Positions 5,717 through 19,309 of a DNA stretch of 27,922 nucleotides are shown piece by piece. Location of the stretch: IMG/VR virus record IMGVR_UViG_3300025153_000019, positions 1-27,922 of that record; one strand, written 5' to 3'. The notes under the pieces were generated by a model, which was not told the DNA's origin, made no database searches, and saw nothing but the letters and a program-made list of their open reading frames with translations. This DNA comes from a virus. How positions within the stretch are numbered: the first letter of the stretch is position 1; each line of letters starts with the position of its first letter. A program made the translations under genes and the position numbers.

Positions 5717-6433
5717 TCAAAAGAGCGATTGTTGCGCAACGTGATCGTTAATTCGTTTCATTGCGTTGTTATAATATTCTGCATCAAGTTCGCACGCTGT
5801 AAGGTCGTATTTGTAGTCGTGACAAGCAATTGCAATTGATCCTGAACCTAAATGCGTATCTAAAATTTTATCCCCTTCATTTGCAAATGTTTTTAATATA
5901 AATCTGTATAATTTTGTAGGTTTTTCAGTTGGATGAATCCTATCTTTTCCCCCTCTTAAATCATTAAATGCACTACAAATGAATTTCTTACTGCTTTTTT
6001 TAAATGAAGTCCAAGCAAATTCACCATCTGCAAAATGTGAACCATCACCATTTATTTTATCCCAGAACACCCAACAACCACTAACGTCTAAACAATCAGT
6101 AAAGTAATTACCACCCCAAACGATTTGATTTTTAGAAACTCTTTTTAGTTCGTTGAAATATTCTTGTGTTGGCTTAATATCCCATTGCTTTGCTTTATGT
6201 TTCGGTGCTGTCTTATAACTATTTGGGCGTGTAGGTTTAGTTATCTTCATTCCTATTTGCATAATTCCGTATGGCGGGTCTACAATAGCTAAATCAAAAT
6301 AATTGTCAGGGTAACGAGCCATAAGATCCATATTATCCTCACATGTTATTTTTAACGACCCACAACTAGCGATAACAGCCGTTTGGCAAGATTGGGTATC
6401 TGAATTAACTGAATTACTGTTTTGTACTTTCAT
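5717..6433 (-). CDS. DNA methyltransferase (N4/N6 amino type), cassette C8
   Basis: A 238-residue amino-methyltransferase with DPPYG at residues 52-56, HPTEKPTKLYRF at about 167-178 and DTHLGSGSIAIA at about 193-204, the permuted order of beta-type enzymes. It is paralogous to 951-1670; the N-terminal TAVIASCGSLKITCEDNM and the C-terminal LTACELD and HVAQQ.LF are shared, while the central target-recognition part differs, so the two probably methylate different sites. The ATG at 6433 lies in the loop of attC S8, so roughly the first 20 residues come from the recombination site. It is the sole gene of cassette C8. Anti-restriction is the likely role (inference). Confidence 0.85.
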   Translation of the reverse strand: MKVQNSNSVNSDTQSCQTAVIASCGSLKITCEDNMDLMARYPDNYFDLAIVDPPYGIMQIGMKITKPTRPNSYKTAPKHKAKQWDIKPTQEYFNELKRVSKNQIVWGGNYFTDCLDVSGCWVFWDKINGDGSHFADGEFAWTSFKKSSKKFICSAFNDLRGGKDRIHPTEKPTKLYRFILKTFANEGDKILDTHLGSGSIAIACHDYKYDLTACELDAEYYNNAMKRINDHVAQQSLF

Positions 6434-12089: not shown

Positions 12090-12140
12090 TAATACCATCA
12101 GTTTGTGTTTGACTATTTGTCTAGCCACAGACACAAACTT

Positions 12141-12167
12141 AAAACCACCTTAACGGGTGGTTTTTTT
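12141..12167 (+). terminator. Rho-independent terminator after the early operon
   Basis: AAAACCACC (12141-12149), 6-base loop, GGTGG and a seven-T run (12156-12167). A second hairpin, AGTTTGTGT with ACACAAACT (12100-12139), lies just before it. It separates the early operon from the primase unit. Confidence 0.85.
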
Positions 12168-12200
12168 ATGCTAAAATGTTTTTTATATCAAAATATTTAT

Positions 12201-12292
12201 TATATTTGTATTGCTGCAACAATTTAAGAAGACATTAATCTAAAAGGGATAATGAAACCAACGTTGCAGTAGGTGGATTTATCCCTTTTTTT
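12201..12292 (+). ncRNA. Promoter plus pseudoknot leader RNA, copy 1
   Basis: The -7 box TATATTTG (12201-12208) is followed almost at once by the structure. Stem 1 pairs CTGCAAC (12214-12220) with GTTGCAG (12263-12269). Stem 2 pairs GGGATAA (12246-12252) with TTATCCC (12279-12285), extendable outward, and is followed by a T-run. The stems interleave as an H-type pseudoknot. Linkers are 25, 10 and 9 nt. It precedes gene 12311-12574. Related copies lie at 16609 and 18708. Confidence 0.7.
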
Positions 12293-12310
12293 AATTTAAT
12301 TTAATTTATT

Positions 12311-12574
12311 ATGAAGTTATTTATTACCAATCAAAAGGAGTTTAAAGATATGTTTGATAGCGAGGATTTACGAAATTCTACTAGAAACTATCTTACAAGT
12401 AGTCAAATTCATAAAAAGACTTTTGCTATTTTATATGAAGCTGTTAATAAAGACGGGAACATTCCTATCGGAATTACTCTTAATTATAGTGACGGAGAAG
12501 GTATTGTTATTTTTATTTTTCAAAATAAAAAAGACGATGTTTATTTTTATGAATATTCTGGCACGGGTTCTTAA
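12311..12574 (+). CDS. Hypothetical protein, 87 residues, behind pseudoknot leader
   Basis: A small acidic protein, helical in the first half and beta-like after residue 50 (IPIGITLNYSDGEGIVIFIF). The family is not recognised. It is the first gene behind the pseudoknot leader copy 1 and lies 2 bases before the primase gene, so the leader probably controls both. An overlapping frame at 12354-12590 has no such context and is rejected. Confidence 0.65.
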   Translation: MKLFITNQKEFKDMFDSEDLRNSTRNYLTSSQIHKKTFAILYEAVNKDGNIPIGITLNYSDGEGIVIFIFQNKKDDVYFYEYSGTGS

Positions 12575-12576
12575 TT

Positions 12577-14865
12577 ATGGAAAAAGATAAACTAAAGTTA
12601 TTTTGGGAAAACTTTTCTTTAATAACAGTTTCAGACAACAAAGTTCCAAACTTTCCTTGGAAATCTTGCCAAACAGAAAAACAAACCCTTAAAAGTTTTA
12701 TTAAGAATTTTGAATATAAGGGTGGTATAATAAAAAAAGACGGAACAGAAATTCTTGCAACTACCAACTTCGGGATAGTTACAGGCTTTGATTTTCTTGA
12801 AGTTGTTGATATTGATTTAAAAGTTTTATCAACAGCTAAAGAACAGGTCGCTTTTTGGGATGAGTATTTAGGATATTTGAAAGATAATATTTTAGATTTT
12901 GACGACAAATTTGTAGTTTATAAAACTAAAAACGCAGGTTATCACATTCTTTATAAATCAAAAAGAGTTGAAGGGAATCTTAAACTTTCAAAACTTAAAG
13001 GGCATAAAGAAGCCATTATTGAAACTAGAGGAATTGGTGGTTATGTCTTTACTTATCCAGAGAATAAAGTTTCAAAGAAAAACTATCATCAAATTGAGTT
13101 TATATCTGATGATGATAGGGAAATTTTAATGAGTTTTTCTAAAATGTATGATTACATTAATGAAATCCCAATAGAGCCTGTTAGAGAGAAAAAAATTTAT
13201 AAAGAAGGCGACATTACCCCCTGGGATGATTATAATCAGAAAACAACTATTTTTGATGTTGTAGGACCTGAATTTTCAATAGTTGCTAATCAAAATAAAA
13301 GATATGTAATTAAAAGACAGGGAGGAACTTCTCCTCATTCAGGATATATTTTTAAAGATACTGGTTGTATGTATCTTTTTTCAACAGGAACAAATTACCC
13401 GCACGAAAAATTAATAACTCCTTTTCTTGCCTATGCTTTTAAAAATCATAATGGTAATTTTTCAGAAGCATCTAAAAAACTTTATGAACTAGGTTTTGGG
13501 ACTCGATTTGTTAAAAAGGAACTAGAGCCTGAAAAAAAAAATGTCTTAGAGAAAGAAGAAAACATATCTATAAATGAGGATGATCTTAAATTTCCTTTAG
13601 ATATATTTCCTAAATCAATTCAATCTTACATTATTGAATGCAATGAAACTTTAGATAGTTCCGTTGATTATATGGGATGTGCTGTACTTTGGCTTATTTC
13701 TTTAAGTATTGGCAATTCAATGCAAATAGAAGTAAAAAGAGGGTGGAATGAAATAGCTACATTATGGCTTTCAATAGTTGGAAAAGCTGGTATTGGTAAA
13801 ACCCCTTCCATTTCAAATATTATATTTCCACTTGAAAAAATAAACAATAGAGAAATAGCCAACTTTATAAAAGAATATGAGAAATACGATTTTTATGCTA
13901 AACTGTCTAAAAAAGAACAAGAGGAATATCCAGAGGTTACAAAACCGAAAAAGAAACAGTTTATTGCAAATGATATTACTCTGGAAGCGTTAGTTGATTT
14001 ACATCAAGAAAGCGACAATGCAGTAGGTGTTTTTAAAGATGAATTAGCTGGTTGGTTCAAAGATATGAATAAATATAAGCAAGGCTCTGATTTAGAGTTT
14101 TGGCTCTCTTGTTGGAGCGGAAAATCAGTAAACCTAAATAGGATTACTAGAGCAGGTTCTTTTGTTGCAAAACCCTTAATATCTGTCTTAGGAGGTATTC
14201 AACCAACTATATTTAGTAGTTTTTATACTGATGAAAACAAAGAAAATGGTTTTATGGACAGGATGCTGTTGTCATATCCTGAATTAACTGTTGAAACTTA
14301 CAACGACAAAGAAATGAATTATGAAACTATACAATGGTACAGCGACACTATAATTTCATTTTTTGAAACTGTTAAAAATAAAATCATAAAAAGGGATGAG
14401 GATCAAAAGATACAGCCTATAATTATTCGTTTTGGAAAAGAAGCTAAAAAAGAATGGATTAGGATTTTTAATAATATTACTGAAACACAAAATTCTGATA
14501 TGGAAAATGAGTATATGAAATCAATGCTCCCAAAACAAAAGTCATACATTCCTAGATTTGCATTATTAATACACTCTTTTAACGCAATAGGCGAAACGAA
14601 TTATAACTTTGAAGAAGTATCAAAAGAATCAATTTTAAAGGCTGAAAAGCTGTCAAAATACTTTATTGCAATGGCTAAAAAAGTAAAATTAGATAGTGTT
14701 GAGGTTTCAGATTTGAAACAAGTTATCAAAACTCAAAACGGTAAAACAACCTTAGAAAAGTTAAAATCTATAGCTGAATTGAATCCAGACTTCAATAAAT
14801 TGAAAACGGCTGAACTTCTAGGAATTTCCCGACAACAAATATATAAACTAATGAAAAAAGTGTAA
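12577..14865 (+). CDS. Phage primase/helicase with prim-pol-like and DUF3987-like domains
   Basis: A 762-residue replication protein. The N-terminal part (about 35-200) looks like a bifunctional primase-polymerase domain, with the acidic pair in VVDIDLK (about 77-83) and HILYKSKR further on. The C-terminal part is DUF3987-like: Walker A GKAGIGKT (about 402-409), then FKDELAGWF as a Walker B-like segment and GGIQP about 45 residues later. The last 30 residues contain a helix-turn-helix (TAELLGISRQQIYKLMKKV). It would prime and unwind phage DNA. Its stop codon lies inside the first repeat of the origin-like region, and the terminal helix-turn-helix is a candidate to bind those repeats (inference). 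Confidence 0.85.
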   Translation: MEKDKLKLFWENFSLITVSDNKVPNFPWKSCQTEKQTLKSFIKNFEYKGGIIKKDGTEILATTNFGIVTGFDFLEVVDIDLKVLSTAKEQVAFWDEYLGYLKDNILDFDDKFVVYKTKNAGYHILYKSKRVEGNLKLSKLKGHKEAIIETRGIGGYVFTYPENKVSKKNYHQIEFISDDDREILMSFSKMYDYINEIPIEPVREKKIYKEGDITPWDDYNQKTTIFDVVGPEFSIVANQNKRYVIKRQGGTSPHSGYIFKDTGCMYLFSTGTNYPHEKLITPFLAYAFKNHNGNFSEASKKLYELGFGTRFVKKELEPEKKNVLEKEENISINEDDLKFPLDIFPKSIQSYIIECNETLDSSVDYMGCAVLWLISLSIGNSMQIEVKRGWNEIATLWLSIVGKAGIGKTPSISNIIFPLEKINNREIANFIKEYEKYDFYAKLSKKEQEEYPEVTKPKKKQFIANDITLEALVDLHQESDNAVGVFKDELAGWFKDMNKYKQGSDLEFWLSCWSGKSVNLNRITRAGSFVAKPLISVLGGIQPTIFSSFYTDENKENGFMDRMLLSYPELTVETYNDKEMNYETIQWYSDTIISFFETVKNKIIKRDEDQKIQPIIIRFGKEAKKEWIRIFNNITETQNSDMENEYMKSMLPKQKSYIPRFALLIHSFNAIGETNYNFEEVSKESILKAEKLSKYFIAMAKKVKLDSVEVSDLKQVIKTQNGKTTLEKLKSIAELNPDFNKLKTAELLGISRQQIYKLMKKV

Positions 14866-15117
14866 ACAACTGTAAACAGTTTACACTAAAAGGTTACAGT
14901 AACTTCTTAGTGTTTATAAGGGCTAACAGCGAAAAGTGTAAACGTTTACAGTTTACACTAAAATAAAAATAAAAAAAAATAAATAAAAAAATATTTTTTA
15001 AAATTAAAAAAAGTGTAAACTGTTTACACTTTCAGCCGTTAGACCCTATAAACATTGAAAAAAAAGTGTAAACACCACTGTAAACTGTTTACACTTTTGT
15101 TTACACTTGTTTACACT
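14858..15117 (+). other. Origin-like region: GTAAAC repeats around an AT-rich core
   Basis: Thirteen copies of GTAAAC or its complement lie in 260 bp, mostly as AGTGTAAAC or GTTTACACT, several back to back (for example 14871-14885 and 15012-15030). The segment 14909-14943 is repeated inverted at about 15022-15056 with mismatches, flanking an A/T-only tract (about 14960-15010). An AT-rich unwinding tract between inverted iteron clusters next to primase and helicase genes suggests a replication origin. Dense operators for a regulator are the alternative. No gene lies here. Confidence 0.7.
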
Positions 15118-15125
15118 TTTAAATT

Positions 15126-15320
15126 ATGAATCCATTTGAAAATATTAATACAAATATAGATGAACAATCAAGAATCAGAGGAACAATTGAAAGTGAAATT
15201 AGAATCTTTGAGAAGCGAATATTATCAATTAAAAGAGAAATCGATAATCTTGAAGGACTTGTTGAAATCAACACCTACTATTCGGACAAAAAAACGGAAA
15301 ACTTCTTATACATAAATTAA
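15126..15320 (+). CDS. Small coiled-coil protein, 64 residues
   Basis: The first ATG after the origin-like repeats opens a frame whose middle (RGTIESEIRIFEKRILSIKREIDNLE) is a coiled coil. It stops 2 bases before the helicase start. A second frame (15160-15315) over the same DNA encodes another plausible coiled coil, so the true product is uncertain. The function is unknown. Confidence 0.5.
   Translation: MNPFENINTNIDEQSRIRGTIESEIRIFEKRILSIKREIDNLEGLVEINTYYSDKKTENFLYIN
15160..15315 (+). CDS. Alternative 51-residue coiled-coil frame
   Basis: Starts MNNQESEEQLKVKLESLRSE and ends in a lysine/arginine-rich tail (TIRTKKRKTSYT). It lies in the +1 frame within 15126-15320. The acidic coiled coil plus basic tail looks as protein-like as the longer frame. 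Only one, or both, may be translated. Confidence 0.4.
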   Translation: MNNQESEEQLKVKLESLRSEYYQLKEKSIILKDLLKSTPTIRTKKRKTSYT

Positions 15321-15322
15321 TT

Positions 15323-16603
15323 ATGAAACTACGAGACTATCAAATTAGACTTTCAAATGAAGCCACAGATATTTTAAAAATACATAAAATAGTTTGTCTA
15401 TGTATGGAAGTCAGAACTGGCAAAACTTTGACGGCTTTGCAAGCTGCTCAAAATTACGGTGCTAAAAATGTTTTGTTCGTTACTAAAATAAAAGCATTTT
15501 CGTCAATTCAATGGGATTATGATCAGATGGATTATGATTTTAAATTGAATATCATAAATAAAGAAAGTTTACACAAAGTTGAAGGCAATTTTGATTTAAT
15601 CATATACGATGAATTTCACGGTTTTTCAGCATATCCGAAGCCGTCAGTATATCAAAAGTTAGCTAAAGACAAATACAGTCATTTACCTATGATTTTGCTG
15701 TCAGGAACACCAACACCTGAAAGCCACTCCCAATGGTATCATTCATTTCAATTGTCAGATAACAGTCCATTCAAAGAATATTCAAACTTTTATAAATGGG
15801 CAAAGGATTTTGTTAATGTGAAAATTAAACATCTTGGATATGCTCAAGTCAATGATTATTCAGATGCGGATATTCGACACATCGAAAGAAGAATTAAATA
15901 TTTTGTTTTGACTTTCACGCAAGCCGAAGCAGGCTTCACATCAACAGTAAACGAAATGGTGTTGGAAGTTGAAATGTTACCAATTACTAACCAAATTATT
16001 GGAAGATTGAAACGAGATTTAGTAGTTAAAAATTCAAATAATCAAATTATATTGGCTGATACTGGTGTAAAGTTGATGCAGAAAATACATCAATTAAGTT
16101 CAGGAACGGTTCTTTTTGAAAATGGAACGAGTAAAGTTATAGATTATAGTAAAGCAGAATTTATAAGAGATAACTTTTCAGATAATAAGATAGCTATATT
16201 TTATAAATTTAAAGAAGAATGGAACGCTTTAAAAACTATTCTAGGGGATAAATTAACTAATAATTTAGAAGAATTTAATAATAGCGACAAATGGTTTGCA
16301 GGACAATTTTTAAGCTCAAGAGAAGGAATAAGTTTGAAAGCAGCCAAATATTTAGTTTATTATAATATTGATTTTTCAGCCACTACATATTGGCAAAGCA
16401 GGGATAGATTGACGGAAAAAACAAGGCTTGAAAATCAAATTTTTTGGTTATTTTCAAAAGATAATGGAAAGAATAAATCAATTGAAAGTCAGATTTATAA
16501 GTCTGTTCTAGGAAAACGTGATTATACTTTGTCAATATTTCGTAAAGATTTCGGTGTAAATTCAGAAAAATTTAAACAAATACCTAGTAGATTTAAAATA
16601 TAA
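15323..16603 (+). CDS. Superfamily 2 DNA helicase (SNF2/DEAD-like), 426 residues
   Basis: Helicase motifs occur in order: Q-motif-like RDYQIRLSNEA at the N-terminus, motif I EVRTGKT (about 29-35), motif II DEFH (about 95-98), motif III LSGTPTPE (about 126-133), and motif VI-like WQSRDRLTEKTR (about 355-366). The protein is short for the class, as phage SNF2-type helicases often are. It would use ATP to move along or remodel phage DNA in replication or recombination. The VRR-NUC nuclease is its usual neighbour in phages; here the two are separated by an HNH gene. Confidence 0.85.
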   Translation: MKLRDYQIRLSNEATDILKIHKIVCLCMEVRTGKTLTALQAAQNYGAKNVLFVTKIKAFSSIQWDYDQMDYDFKLNIINKESLHKVEGNFDLIIYDEFHGFSAYPKPSVYQKLAKDKYSHLPMILLSGTPTPESHSQWYHSFQLSDNSPFKEYSNFYKWAKDFVNVKIKHLGYAQVNDYSDADIRHIERRIKYFVLTFTQAEAGFTSTVNEMVLEVEMLPITNQIIGRLKRDLVVKNSNNQIILADTGVKLMQKIHQLSSGTVLFENGTSKVIDYSKAEFIRDNFSDNKIAIFYKFKEEWNALKTILGDKLTNNLEEFNNSDKWFAGQFLSSREGISLKAAKYLVYYNIDFSATTYWQSRDRLTEKTRLENQIFWLFSKDNGKNKSIESQIYKSVLGKRDYTLSIFRKDFGVNSEKFKQIPSRFKI

Positions 16604-16608
16604 TTTTG

Positions 16609-16701
16609 TATATTTGTCTTTGTAGAGTGGAAGCTACAATTTAAGACATTATAAAAATCCAATACTGATAGAGACTTCCACCTCTTGATGTATTGGTTTT
16701 T
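16609..16701 (+). ncRNA. Promoter plus pseudoknot leader RNA, copy 2
   Basis: -7 box TATATTTG (16609-16616). Stem 1: GTGGAAG (16627-16633) with CTTCCAC (16675-16681). Stem 2: CCAATAC (16659-16665) with GTATTGG (16690-16696), followed by TTTTT. Linkers are 25, 9 and 8 nt. The ATG of the HNH gene (16708) follows 11 bases after stem 2. The promoter box lies just after the helicase stop. Confidence 0.75.
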
Positions 16702-16707
16702 ACTTTT

Positions 16708-17226
16708 ATGGAAGTTTGGAAAGATATTATAGGTTTTGAAAATTTTTATTCAGTAAGTTCTACTGGTAGGGTAAAAAGTTTATCAAGAGAAGTTTTTCAC
16801 ATTAAAGGAAACTTGAATTTAAATGAAAAAATATTAAAACAAGGTTTATCATCTAATGGATATTTATCGGTTTCTTTTACTATGTTTAGAAAACAAAAAA
16901 CCTTTAATATTCATAGATTAGTGGCTGAAGTCTTTATTAAAAATGAACTTAATAAAAAAGATGTAAATCATATAGATGGAAACAAATTTAATAATAATGT
17001 TTATAATTTAGAATGGAGTACTAGAAGTGAAAACTTAATTCACGCATATTTGATTGGTTTAAAAGAAAGAGGTGAAAAACACCCTAATGCTAAACTTACA
17101 GAAAAACAAGTCTTACAAATAAGAAGTATTAAAAGTGTATCTCACGAAAAAATTGCTATTGACTATAATGTCACTAGGAAATGTATTAGTAAAATATTAA
17201 ATAGACAAACTTGGAAACATTTATAA
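16708..17226 (+). CDS. HNH homing endonuclease (NUMOD4 + HNH), 172 residues
   Basis: Residues 1-50 (MEVWKDIIGFENFYSVSSTG, then RVKSL) are a NUMOD4 module. HNH motifs follow: HRLVAEVFI (H69), VNHIDGNKFNNN (H88, D90) and NLEWSTRSEN. The C-terminal 50 residues carry a helix-turn-helix for DNA recognition (HEKIAIDYNVTRKCISKIL). It is a free-standing homing endonuclease gene inserted between the helicase and the VRR-NUC gene, with its own promoter and pseudoknot leader. The start at ATG 16708 is preferred to an upstream TTG that lies inside the leader stem. Confidence 0.9.
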   Translation: MEVWKDIIGFENFYSVSSTGRVKSLSREVFHIKGNLNLNEKILKQGLSSNGYLSVSFTMFRKQKTFNIHRLVAEVFIKNELNKKDVNHIDGNKFNNNVYNLEWSTRSENLIHAYLIGLKERGEKHPNAKLTEKQVLQIRSIKSVSHEKIAIDYNVTRKCISKILNRQTWKHL

Positions 17227-17227
17227 T

Positions 17228-17506
17228 ATGGAATCACAAATACAAAGGAAGATTATAATACAACTAGAAGTAGCAGGTTACTTCGTGGTTAAATTAATTA
17301 AGACCAACAAAAATGGCATTCCTGATTTATTGGCGGTCAAAGAAAAACGGACAATATTTATAGAAGTAAAACAAGAACACGGAAAACTATCAGAAATTCA
17401 AAAACATCGTATCAATGAAATCAAATCAAAACAAATCGAGTGCTACACATGGACAAGTTTCGGAATCAATTTTGATAAAGGAGACCCGTATATATTTAAA
17501 CTTTGA
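17228..17506 (+). CDS. VRR-NUC domain nuclease, 92 residues
   Basis: A single VRR-NUC domain of the PD-(D/E)xK superfamily: GIPDLLAV with D33, then FIEVKQEHGKLSEIQ with E46 and K48, the catalytic D...ExK arrangement. Phage single-domain VRR-NUC proteins are structure-specific nucleases coupled to SNF2 helicases. The gene starts 1 base after the HNH stop, so it probably now depends partly on the HNH promoter. Confidence 0.88.
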   Translation: MESQIQRKIIIQLEVAGYFVVKLIKTNKNGIPDLLAVKEKRTIFIEVKQEHGKLSEIQKHRINEIKSKQIECYTWTSFGINFDKGDPYIFKL

Positions 17507-17702
17507 AACACAAAATTCAAAATTAGGTCGTCCGTTCCGTTTAAGTGGAACTAGAAAAAATTTACAGCTCCCAGAAAAATGGATAGACAAGGTTTTAAAA
17601 AACCATTGGATTCATTCCTTTATTTATTTGGACGAACAAGGTGGATTTTTTGAAGTTGAAATAGATTATTACGATAAGTTTGTTTCTCTTACTAAAAAAT
17701 AA
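17415..17702 (+). CDS. Hypothetical protein, up to 95 residues
   Basis: The C-terminal part (about residues 35-95: KLGRPFRLSGTRKNLQLPEKWIDKVL, then FEVEIDYYDKFVSLT) looks like a genuine small phage protein. The only ATG in frame (17415) overlaps the VRR-NUC gene by 92 bases, and a TTG at 17472 is the alternative, so the start is uncertain. No function is recognised. Confidence 0.55.
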   Translation: MKSNQNKSSATHGQVSESILIKETRIYLNFETQNSKLGRPFRLSGTRKNLQLPEKWIDKVLKNHWIHSFIYLDEQGGFFEVEIDYYDKFVSLTKK

Positions 17703-17737
17703 TGCAAACTTTTTAACCGAGTTGTTGAAATAATTTA

Positions 17738-17745
17738 TAACTTTG
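17738..17745 (+). promoter_or_regulatory. Possible promoter -7 box before the glycosyltransferase gene
   Basis: TAACTTTG fits TAnnTTTG and lies 5 bases before ATG 17751, so the transcript would be nearly leaderless. No good -33 TTTG is found at the right distance. Confidence 0.35.
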
Positions 17746-17750
17746 AAACA

Positions 17751-18698
17751 ATGAAAAAATTAGCAATATACATAAGCAATTACAACGTAATTGGAGGAGT
17801 TGAAAGGTTTGTAGAGAATTTTTGTAAAAGAATGTCAAAACATTACGATATTACTTTTTTTTATGACTGGTGCGAAAATGAAAATATGCTATTAGAAATG
17901 TCGGAGTTTGTCAATGTAATAAAAATTGATAAAACAAAAACATATACTTTCGATTATTTTGTAAACAGCACGGCTTGGGGATTCGAACCATACAATAACA
18001 TATTAGCAGCTAAATCAATTCAAGTCGTTCACGCTGATTATCGCCACGTTATTGCAACTTGGAATTTTAAATACAACAAGCATAAAAACACGACCCATCA
18101 CGTTTGCGTTGGGGAAATAGTAAAAGAAGCTTTTGAGGAGGCCACACCTTACAAATGCGACGCTGTTATTTATAATCTATTAGACAATACCATAAAGTTA
18201 GAAAAGAAGCTTAAAAACGATGTTTTATATTTGGTTACTTTGTCAAGACTTTCAGGCGAAAAAGGTTTTAAAAGAATGTTGCAATTGGCAAATCAATTGG
18301 AATCAAAAAATATTCCGTACATTTGGAATGTTTACGGGAACACATCCAGTAATTTTGCAAAAGGAATAGTTAATTCATTCTCAAAAACAAACGTAGAATT
18401 CAAAGGAGTTACCCGGGAACCGTTCAAAGAAATTAACAAAGCTGACTATTTAGTCCAGCTTTCAGATACAGAAGGATTTGCTTATAGTGTTTTTGAGGCA
18501 ATGCAATGCAGAACACCATCTATAATAACTCCTTTTGCAAGTGGTAAAGAACAAATTACCCACGGAGTAAATGGTTGGATAATCCCATTTGATATGCAAA
18601 ACATAGATTTTGAAAGTATATTAAGAAAAGATTTGGATGCACCAAAATTTAAAGAACCTGGATCAGAAAAATCTTGGATAGATTTTTTAAGTAAGTAG
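17751..18698 (+). CDS. GT4-type glycosyltransferase, 315 residues
   Basis: A GT-B fold enzyme of family 4. The N-terminal NVIGGVERFVENF (about 12-24) is the donor-domain glycine loop. The C-terminal half has LSRLSGEKGFKRML and the nucleotide-sugar binding segment SDTEGFAYSVFEAMQCRTPSIIT (about 237-259) with the E-x7-E-like pair. It would transfer a sugar from an activated donor. It lies between replication genes and the packaging module, with an HNH gene after it. Phage glycosyltransferases modify DNA, virion proteins or host surface glycans; the acceptor cannot be told here. Confidence 0.85.
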   Translation: MKKLAIYISNYNVIGGVERFVENFCKRMSKHYDITFFYDWCENENMLLEMSEFVNVIKIDKTKTYTFDYFVNSTAWGFEPYNNILAAKSIQVVHADYRHVIATWNFKYNKHKNTTHHVCVGEIVKEAFEEATPYKCDAVIYNLLDNTIKLEKKLKNDVLYLVTLSRLSGEKGFKRMLQLANQLESKNIPYIWNVYGNTSSNFAKGIVNSFSKTNVEFKGVTREPFKEINKADYLVQLSDTEGFAYSVFEAMQCRTPSIITPFASGKEQITHGVNGWIIPFDMQNIDFESILRKDLDAPKFKEPGSEKSWIDFLSK

Positions 18699-18707
18699 AA
18701 TTTTTTG

Positions 18708-18799
18708 TATATTTGTCTTATAGGAGTGGACGCCTAATTAACAATTTTATAAAATTCCAACACAGATAAAGACGTCCACCTTTTGAAGTGTTGGTTTTT
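18708..18799 (+). ncRNA. Promoter plus pseudoknot leader RNA, copy 3
   Basis: -7 box TATATTTG (18708-18715). Stem 1: GTGGACG (18726-18732) with CGTCCAC (18773-18779). Stem 2: CCAACAC (18757-18763) with GTGTTGG (18788-18794), then TTTTT. Linkers are 24, 9 and 8 nt. Relative to copy 2 there is one compensatory change in each stem (A-T to C-G in stem 1, T-A to C-G in stem 2). Confidence 0.75.
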
Positions 18800-18805
18800 A
18801 ATTAT

Positions 18806-19309
18806 ATGGAAATTTGGAAAAGTATTTTAGGTTATGAAGGTTTTTACGAAGTATCTAATTTAGGCAATATAAAAAGTTTGAATTATAATAATACTAAAAA
18901 AGAAAACGTTTTAATGCAAAACATTGGAAGTAACGGCTATTTTGTTGTTAGTTTATCTAAAAACAATATTAGAAAACAAAGAACTGTACATCAAATTGTT
19001 GCTGAGAGTTTTTATAATCATATTCCTAATGGAAATAAATTAGTTGTAAATCATATTAATTTTATTAAAACAGATAATAGATTAGAAAATTTAGAAATAG
19101 TAACTAACAGAGAAAATTCAAATAAAAAACATATTAAAAGCACATCTAAGTACACAGGTGTTTGTTGGCATAAACAACATAATAAATGGGTGGCTCAAAT
19201 TGTAATTAATAGCAAAGTAAAACATTTAGGATATTTTTTAGACGAGTTAGAAGCGAGTAGATCTTATGATAAAGCATTAAAATACTTATTAGAAAATGGT
19301 AAAACTTAA
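18806..19309 (+). CDS. HNH homing endonuclease with AP2 domain, 167 residues
   Basis: NUMOD4 at residues 1-50 (MEIWKSILGYEGFYEVSNLG), HNH region at about 60-105 (VHQIVAESFY, VNHINFIKTDNRLENLE with H83), and an AP2 DNA-binding domain at about 115-165 (KYTGVCWHKQHNKWVAQI through ASRSYDKAL). It is a free-standing homing endonuclease related in layout, though not identical, to 16708-17226. It has its own promoter and pseudoknot leader, and its 3' end overlaps the next gene by 14 bases. The ATG lies 11 bases after stem 2 of the leader. Confidence 0.9.
   Translation: MEIWKSILGYEGFYEVSNLGNIKSLNYNNTKKENVLMQNIGSNGYFVVSLSKNNIRKQRTVHQIVAESFYNHIPNGNKLVVNHINFIKTDNRLENLEIVTNRENSNKKHIKSTSKYTGVCWHKQHNKWVAQIVINSKVKHLGYFLDELEASRSYDKALKYLLENGKT

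Follow-up and report, generated by a model that had tools for sequence, protein, structure and literature searches.

Several described RNAs share parts of their architecture with the element reported here, a promoter-proximal leader RNA that precedes three genes in a 27.9 kb virus record of IMG/VR (IMGVR_UViG_3300025153_000019, 27,922 nucleotides (nt), the whole stretch being hereafter the window). The guanidine-II (mini-ykkC) riboswitch is made of two successive hairpins in loop-loop contact, and the CI RNA of phage P4 and the c4 antisense RNA of phage P1 are phage leader RNAs located before replication genes that combine loop complementarity with premature termination. Intrinsic-terminator attenuators and riboswitch expression platforms also place, in a 5′ leader, a hairpin and a run of uridines (U-run) before a gene, and Flavo-1 (RF01705) is a structured RNA of Bacteroidetes without known function. 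The c4 antisense RNA is listed in PMC2864571. In phage HK022, putL forms two stem-loops directly downstream of an early promoter, over about 70 nt (+2 to +74) and with pairing from +3 (PMC9378689).

The phage leader departs from each of these systems. Its successive hairpins in loop-loop contact recall guanidine-II and other loop-loop RNAs, but where guanidine-II has invariant ACGR tetraloops, the phage leader has hypervariable loops that covary over 6-10 base pairs (bp). In P4 CI and P1 c4 the pairing partner is a separate RNA, whereas here it lies within the same hairpin pair. As in attenuators and riboswitch platforms, a hairpin is directly followed by a U-run, but the leader shows neither an exclusive antiterminator nor a ligand-type core; instead, the loop of an upstream hairpin captures the terminator loop. 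Like HK022 putRNA, it has two stem-loops near +1 of a phage promoter, the first lying 4-5 nt from the promoter box, and it is associated with early/replication operons; putRNA differs by its conserved sequence and triplex stem, by the lack of a described terminal U-run, and by the absence of any reported kissing loop found in PMC9378689. The Flavo-1 model matches no leader copy. Indeed, an Rfam scan of the window (E ≤ 1) and of eight related loci (E ≤ 5) assigned no leader to any family, Flavo-1 and P4/c4-type RNAs included, and the flavobacterial motifs to which an earlier note on this DNA had pointed thus offer no match. Literature searches, whose reach left outside a 2017 survey of 224 candidate RNAs, returned no such RNA. 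The phage leader is best classed as a cis-acting leader RNA, distinguished by a +1 hairpin that kisses a terminator-type loop and by a fold that stays constant while almost all of its sequence changes.

The kissing-loop fold and its covariation

At 12201, 16609 and 18708 of the window (copies A, B and C), the earlier note had described one and the same sequence (TATATTTG, here the promoter box) followed by two interleaved 7-bp stems, a T-run and a start codon. Coordinates, order of elements and pairings are as claimed, stem 2 of copy A being even longer (11 bp, AAAAGGGATAA/TTATCCCTTTT). Stem 2 is the base of a hairpin, P2, with the U-run immediately 3′, and stem 1 sits within the loops of two hairpins, the loop of hairpin P1 pairing with the apical loop of P2. 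In copy B the two loops, of 8 nt each, form 7 bp with one another. Two hairpins are thus joined in a kissing-loop pseudoknot; the element is pseudoknotted as proposed, with a topology other than the simple two-stem one. We call K the kissing strand in the P1 loop and K′ its complement in the P2 apical loop. With loops in brackets, copy B reads P1 TTGTAG(A-GTGGAAG)CTACAA, then P2 CCAATAC-UGAU-AGAG(A-CUUCCAC)CUCU-UGAU-GUAUUGG and UUUUU. RNAfold, which cannot represent the kissing pairing, returned P1 and P2 for copies B and C and P2 alone for copy A. P1 of copy A, absent from this prediction, has just 4 bp, and its K overlaps one P1 base, reaching into CAAT, which differs from copies B and C.

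Sequence identity between copies B and C is 79% across the leader and the gene start. They are paralogues, both HNH leaders, and three copies alone are therefore thin evidence of covariation. Of the earlier claim of three unrelated transcription units, what stands is that several units share the leader. Likewise, the strong covariation it had read from copies A to C comes in fact from many more copies with compensatory changes in related phage DNA.

Relatives were taken from viral contigs via two proteins, the HNH protein and the DUF3987 primase. A first descriptor recovered about 90 candidate sites among them (overlapping boxes counted), while 4560 shuffled boxes gave only 4. For the HNH class, viral contigs were scanned with a DNA pattern restricted to the tip of P2, which constrained neither the variable loop positions nor any part of the upstream half. 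Upstream, all 67 distinct untruncated HNH-type leaders had an exact complement of the 7-nt loop, in seven different sequences, while swapping loops between leaders gave 1/3078; the promoter box was present in 65/67. With a broader pattern, 93/94 loop complements were exact and the remaining mismatch position forms a G-U pair. In an alignment of 62 leaders, 98.6% of the cells of the full structure are paired, and changes on both sides affect 14 of 22 pairs. They amount to 227 cells, whereas shuffles gave 65 and slid structures no more than 22. Pairing in the kissing helix is complete (100%) in this alignment; three of its seven positions vary on both strands and the other four are invariant. 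A covariance model built without the kissing helix (R1) detected additional, weaker leaders, and complementary loops were present in each of the seven distinct weak leaders that were inspected; this check is only partly independent because R1 still carries some loop sequence. Simple chance or DNA inverted repeats were rejected on three grounds: the shuffles, the control with swapped loops, and features tied to one strand (promoter 5′, U-run and ATG 3′). At the level of sequence comparison, a covarying pseudoknotted leader common to several transcription units is confirmed, well beyond three copies.

The family was then delimited by fold, with a parser that requires box, P1, kissing strand and P2 but demands neither the U-run nor a start codon. 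At a score of at least 50 it retained 140 real leaders, against 2 in 1286 shuffled boxes. By sequence they group into 80 clusters, which have 76 different kissing sequences between them; a few clusters at the low end of the score range resemble chance hits. The kissing helix, 6-10 bp long across the family, is perfectly Watson-Crick in 69/80 clusters, and own loops outscore swapped ones (median 19 vs 10; 0.8% of swaps attain the own median). P1 by itself has little stability (median -3.1 kcal/mol), the kissing helix having a median of -10.4 kcal/mol. By inspection, P2 recurrently contains a non-canonical internal loop, either tandem G-A (UGAU/UGAU) or AGUA/GAA-like, in either orientation. This loop and the inner part of P2 (P2b) are conserved inside the HNH class and not across classes, which argues against a riboswitch-type conserved ligand core. 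Across the 80 clusters we saw no universal unpaired motif or conserved sequence contacting RNA polymerase, and linker length does not track the length of the coaxial stack (Spearman -0.23). A Pistol-type ribozyme, whose topology is similar, was rejected, no catalytic core being conserved across clusters. Judged from these clusters, sequences turn over almost completely while the fold stays: paired sequences would drift freely and complementarity would be kept because function would rest on shape.

Promoter, U-run and terminator likeness

The gap between the box and P1 peaks at 4-5 nt. In Flavobacterium psychrophilum the promoter box lies at -12 to -5 and the median 5′ untranslated region is 24 nt (PMC9723704); P1 should therefore begin at about +1 of the TAnnTTTG promoter. 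The expected transcription start is thus at P1 and not downstream of stem 1; a start downstream is what the earlier note had named as a finding that would speak against it. Relative to these 5′ untranslated regions, the kissing leaders are unusually long.

Although the parser does not require it, TTTT lies within -2 to +8 of P2 in 70/80 clusters, as expected of a hairpin directly followed by a U-run in intrinsic terminators; AAAA follows P2 in 1/80, and TTTT occurs at shifted windows in 6-14/80. In the HNH class, G/C pairs at the base of P2 are nearly invariant beside U5. The U-run is retained even where cassettes have been inserted and the start codon is 60-110 nt away, and is therefore not merely a translation feature. 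An E. coli-type terminator score (d), whose calibration is not for Bacteroidota, is positive in 31/80 clusters, against 5% with shuffled tails; copies A, B and C score +9.6, -6.9 and -14.6, while the phage's ordinary terminator, at about 12141-12164, reaches +19.9. P2 is thus terminator-like yet mostly weaker than the ordinary terminator of the phage. The latter (ACCACC/GGGTGGTTTTTTT, window 12131-12170) stands immediately 5′ of leader A and would keep transcription arriving from upstream out of the primase unit.

Genes and carriers

The features of the window are given in Table 1. Profile matches agree with the earlier note that two copies precede HNH genes and one a small open reading frame (ORF) and a primase.

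Table 1. Coordinates of the three leaders and of the genes behind them in the window.
Feature	Position	Strand	Remark
Copy A promoter box TAnnTTTG (TATATTTG)	12201..12208	+	consensus position -12 to -5 (PMC9723704)
Copy A P1 (ATTG/CAAT), K CTGCAAC 12214-12220	12210..12223	+	closely similar leaders in relatives L032 and L033
Copy A P2 (AAAAGGGATAA/TTATCCCTTTT, inner P2b ACC/GGT), K′ GTTGCAG 12263-12269	12242..12289	+	terminator score d = +9.6
Copy A U-run	12286..12292	+	first four bases able to pair with A's at P2 base
87-aa ORF behind leader A, family unassigned	12311..12574	+	ATG at 12311
Prim-Pol/DUF3987 primase-helicase, main gene of unit A	12577..14865	+	DUF3987 E=1.9e-55
Copy B promoter box	16609..16616	+	
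Copy B P1 (TTGTAG/CTACAA), K GTGGAAG 16627-16633	16620..16639	+	
Copy B P2 (CCAATAC/GTATTGG; tandem G-A internal loop UGAU/UGAU; P2b AGAG/CTCT), K′ CTTCCAC 16675-16681	16659..16696	+	
Copy B U-run	16697..16701	+	
NUMOD4 + HNH_3 endonuclease gene behind leader B	16708..17226	+	ATG at 16708
Copy C promoter box	18708..18715	+	
Copy C P1 (TAGG/CCTA), K GTGGACG 18726-18732	18721..18736	+	
Copy C P2 (CCAACAC/GTGTTGG; tandem G-A internal loop AGAU/UGAA; P2b AAAG/CTTT), K′ CGTCCAC 18773-18779	18757..18794	+	
Copy C U-run	18795..18799	+	
NUMOD4 + HNH_3 (+AP2) endonuclease gene behind leader C	18806..19309	+	ATG at 18806

Across the family, the ATG lies 8-29 nt past P2 in 65/73 leaders, and leaders with an ATG 42-119 nt past it also occur. 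First and second genes encode primase-helicases (DUF3987/Prim-Pol, BT4734/PriCT, Toprim/DnaB), ResIII/DEAD helicases, DUF3127 (which carries an SSB annotation in Nonlabens phage P12024L), ERF, YqaJ, DNA methylases, HNH and VRR_NUC proteins, and the 25 most frequent downstream families include no structural one. With a sampling biased by loci obtained through the primase and HNH classes, the leader thus appears to be used mainly on replication/recombination units. Multi-leader phages have two to four leaders.

Among named phages, the leader precedes a small ORF and an annotated replication protein in Flavobacterium phage vB_FspP_elemoA_7-9A (L150:14695) and Olleya phage Harreka_1 (L352:30070), and adjoins a repressor gene in Bacteroides phage BS-TP2 (L353:11163). 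P12024L, the nearest isolate by terminase, has no convincing leader; its gp18 unit begins with a simple GTATC/GATAC hairpin, and its gp35 (L350:21405-21884) is an annotated sigma-70 region 2 protein. A near-DNA search of the window against named phages found no close match to it, and the HNH hits there are coding only. The covariance model search proposed earlier added weaker phage leaders, but gave a single contig among 397 Flavobacteriaceae genomes. As this contig is prophage-like and carries a phage primase gene, a host-genome RNA was rejected and the HNH-class form, which is what R1 mainly detects and which was searched on this scale with strict filters, appears essentially phage-borne.

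Five related loci (L180, L188, L197, L217 and L251) have a near-identical leader followed by different small-ORF inserts at one fixed point (TATAACG), possibly an integron-like, leader-driven cassette site in a phage; the L197/L251 insert contains an attC-like imperfect palindrome. Immediately 3′ of the primase gene of the window, whose product has a helix-turn-helix-like C-terminus, GTGTAAAC occurs ten times in both orientations (14860-15116; chance expectation 0.76 for the whole window), making this array a candidate iteron origin. The primase loci of several relatives contain TTTAAACC- or GTGTAAA-type repeats. On the minus strand, two similar ORFs (951-1670 and 5717-6433) resemble DNA methyltransferases, with DPPYG and HPTEKP motifs recognized by eye.

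How the leader may act

Sequence comparison demonstrates a sigma-A-type TAnnTTTG promoter, a promoter-proximal place, and selection on the two-hairpin kissing fold and on the U-run abutting P2. How this acts on transcription we infer, and the reading that we prefer, while granting it somewhat less than an even chance, is that of a cis-acting 5′-terminal leader working as a promoter-proximal attenuator or leaky terminator. Transcription would start at the first base of P1, which would fold first and expose K; K would then capture K′ in the loop of the emerging terminator-like hairpin P2, and the resulting locked rod would cause RNA polymerase, in some of the transcription rounds, to pause or terminate once it reaches the U-run. 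Only read-through would then give full entry into the replication/recombination unit, and its level might be fixed by the RNA, by conditions or by some factor; HNH cassettes, which bring a leader copy of their own, would fall under this expression programme as well. What speaks most for this reading is the position of the U-run, directly against P2, and its retention before inserted cassettes. Indeed, of the functions suggested earlier (attenuator, translational switch or stable small RNA), this one is best supported by the U-run. Several points weigh against it, the strongest being the modest terminator scores and the lack of an alternative fold. Most P2 hairpins are under the E. coli threshold (median d -5.5, on a scale not calibrated for Bacteroidota), and in one subclass the U-run lies about 5 nt past the stem (GGGCATTAACTTTTT). 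RNAfold and inspection gave only P1 and P2, with no mutually exclusive antiterminator fold; K:K′ pairing being compatible with P2, there is no obvious switch, and why a terminator loop should be captured is unclear.

The same rod could serve stability instead. Hairpin geometry at the 5′ end protects E. coli ompA-type messages, and a locked P1-K-P2 rod starting at about +1/+2, with a P1 of like geometry, might shield the message from 5′-dependent RNases, the U-run being an unstructured spacer before the start codon. The weakness of P1 alone, which would need the much stronger kissing helix, and the drift of sequence under a shape-based function both suit this reading, which does not predict the G/C pairs abutting the U-run in 70/80 clusters or the retention of the U-run far from the start codon; we regard it as unlikely. 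A translational element would account for the short distance from P2 to the ATG in most leaders, all the more so as initiation in Bacteroidota is independent of Shine-Dalgarno sequences and tuned by structure (PMC6847099), but leaders with distant start codons occur, and the U-run occupies the region where highly translated F. johnsoniae mRNAs prefer A, so this role seems very doubtful.

Two other readings would extend the leader's reach beyond its own 5′ end. In a put-like antiterminator, the nascent RNA would stay on RNA polymerase, which would then resist pausing and termination along the operon, with P2 and the U-run as a possible loading pause. Placement and size match HK022 putL (PMC9378689), but putL and putR share sequence, whereas here 80 clusters have 76 different K and no universal unpaired motif; the triplex stem of putRNA and a text search of that paper, which gave no kissing loop or pseudoknot, further make this quite unlikely. 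If, on the other hand, a terminated leader of about 95 nt accumulated, it might act in trans by kissing other leaders or those of incoming phages, an immunity like that of the P4/P1 C4 system in which K would be a specificity code. K is hypervariable, the leader precedes a replication operon as in P4, and no identical K pair was found within a genome, either in the eight genomes with paired HNH-type leaders or among the higher-scoring leaders listed. This avoidance is suggestive only, 0/8 having a chance of about 0.07 given the K frequencies, which is not significant. Moreover, K and K′ already satisfy each other within a single RNA, and a lysogeny context is lacking in most carriers, so that we consider a trans-acting RNA improbable.

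Taken as a whole, it is possible, if rather doubtful, that this is a widespread and previously undescribed family of phage leaders, in which a +1 hairpin kissing a terminator-type hairpin would govern how host RNA polymerase enters replication operons; conservation would be limited to geometry, loops would diverge into codes orthogonal to one another, and HNH genes, being mobile, would take the leader with them and so join the phage programme. Because only the fold is conserved, the family escapes sequence search. Phages of Bacteroidota abound in water and gut, and their regulation is little known; in these phages the leader would predict sites where RNA polymerase stops, and it may provide a test system for the effect of a loop-loop helix on a terminator.

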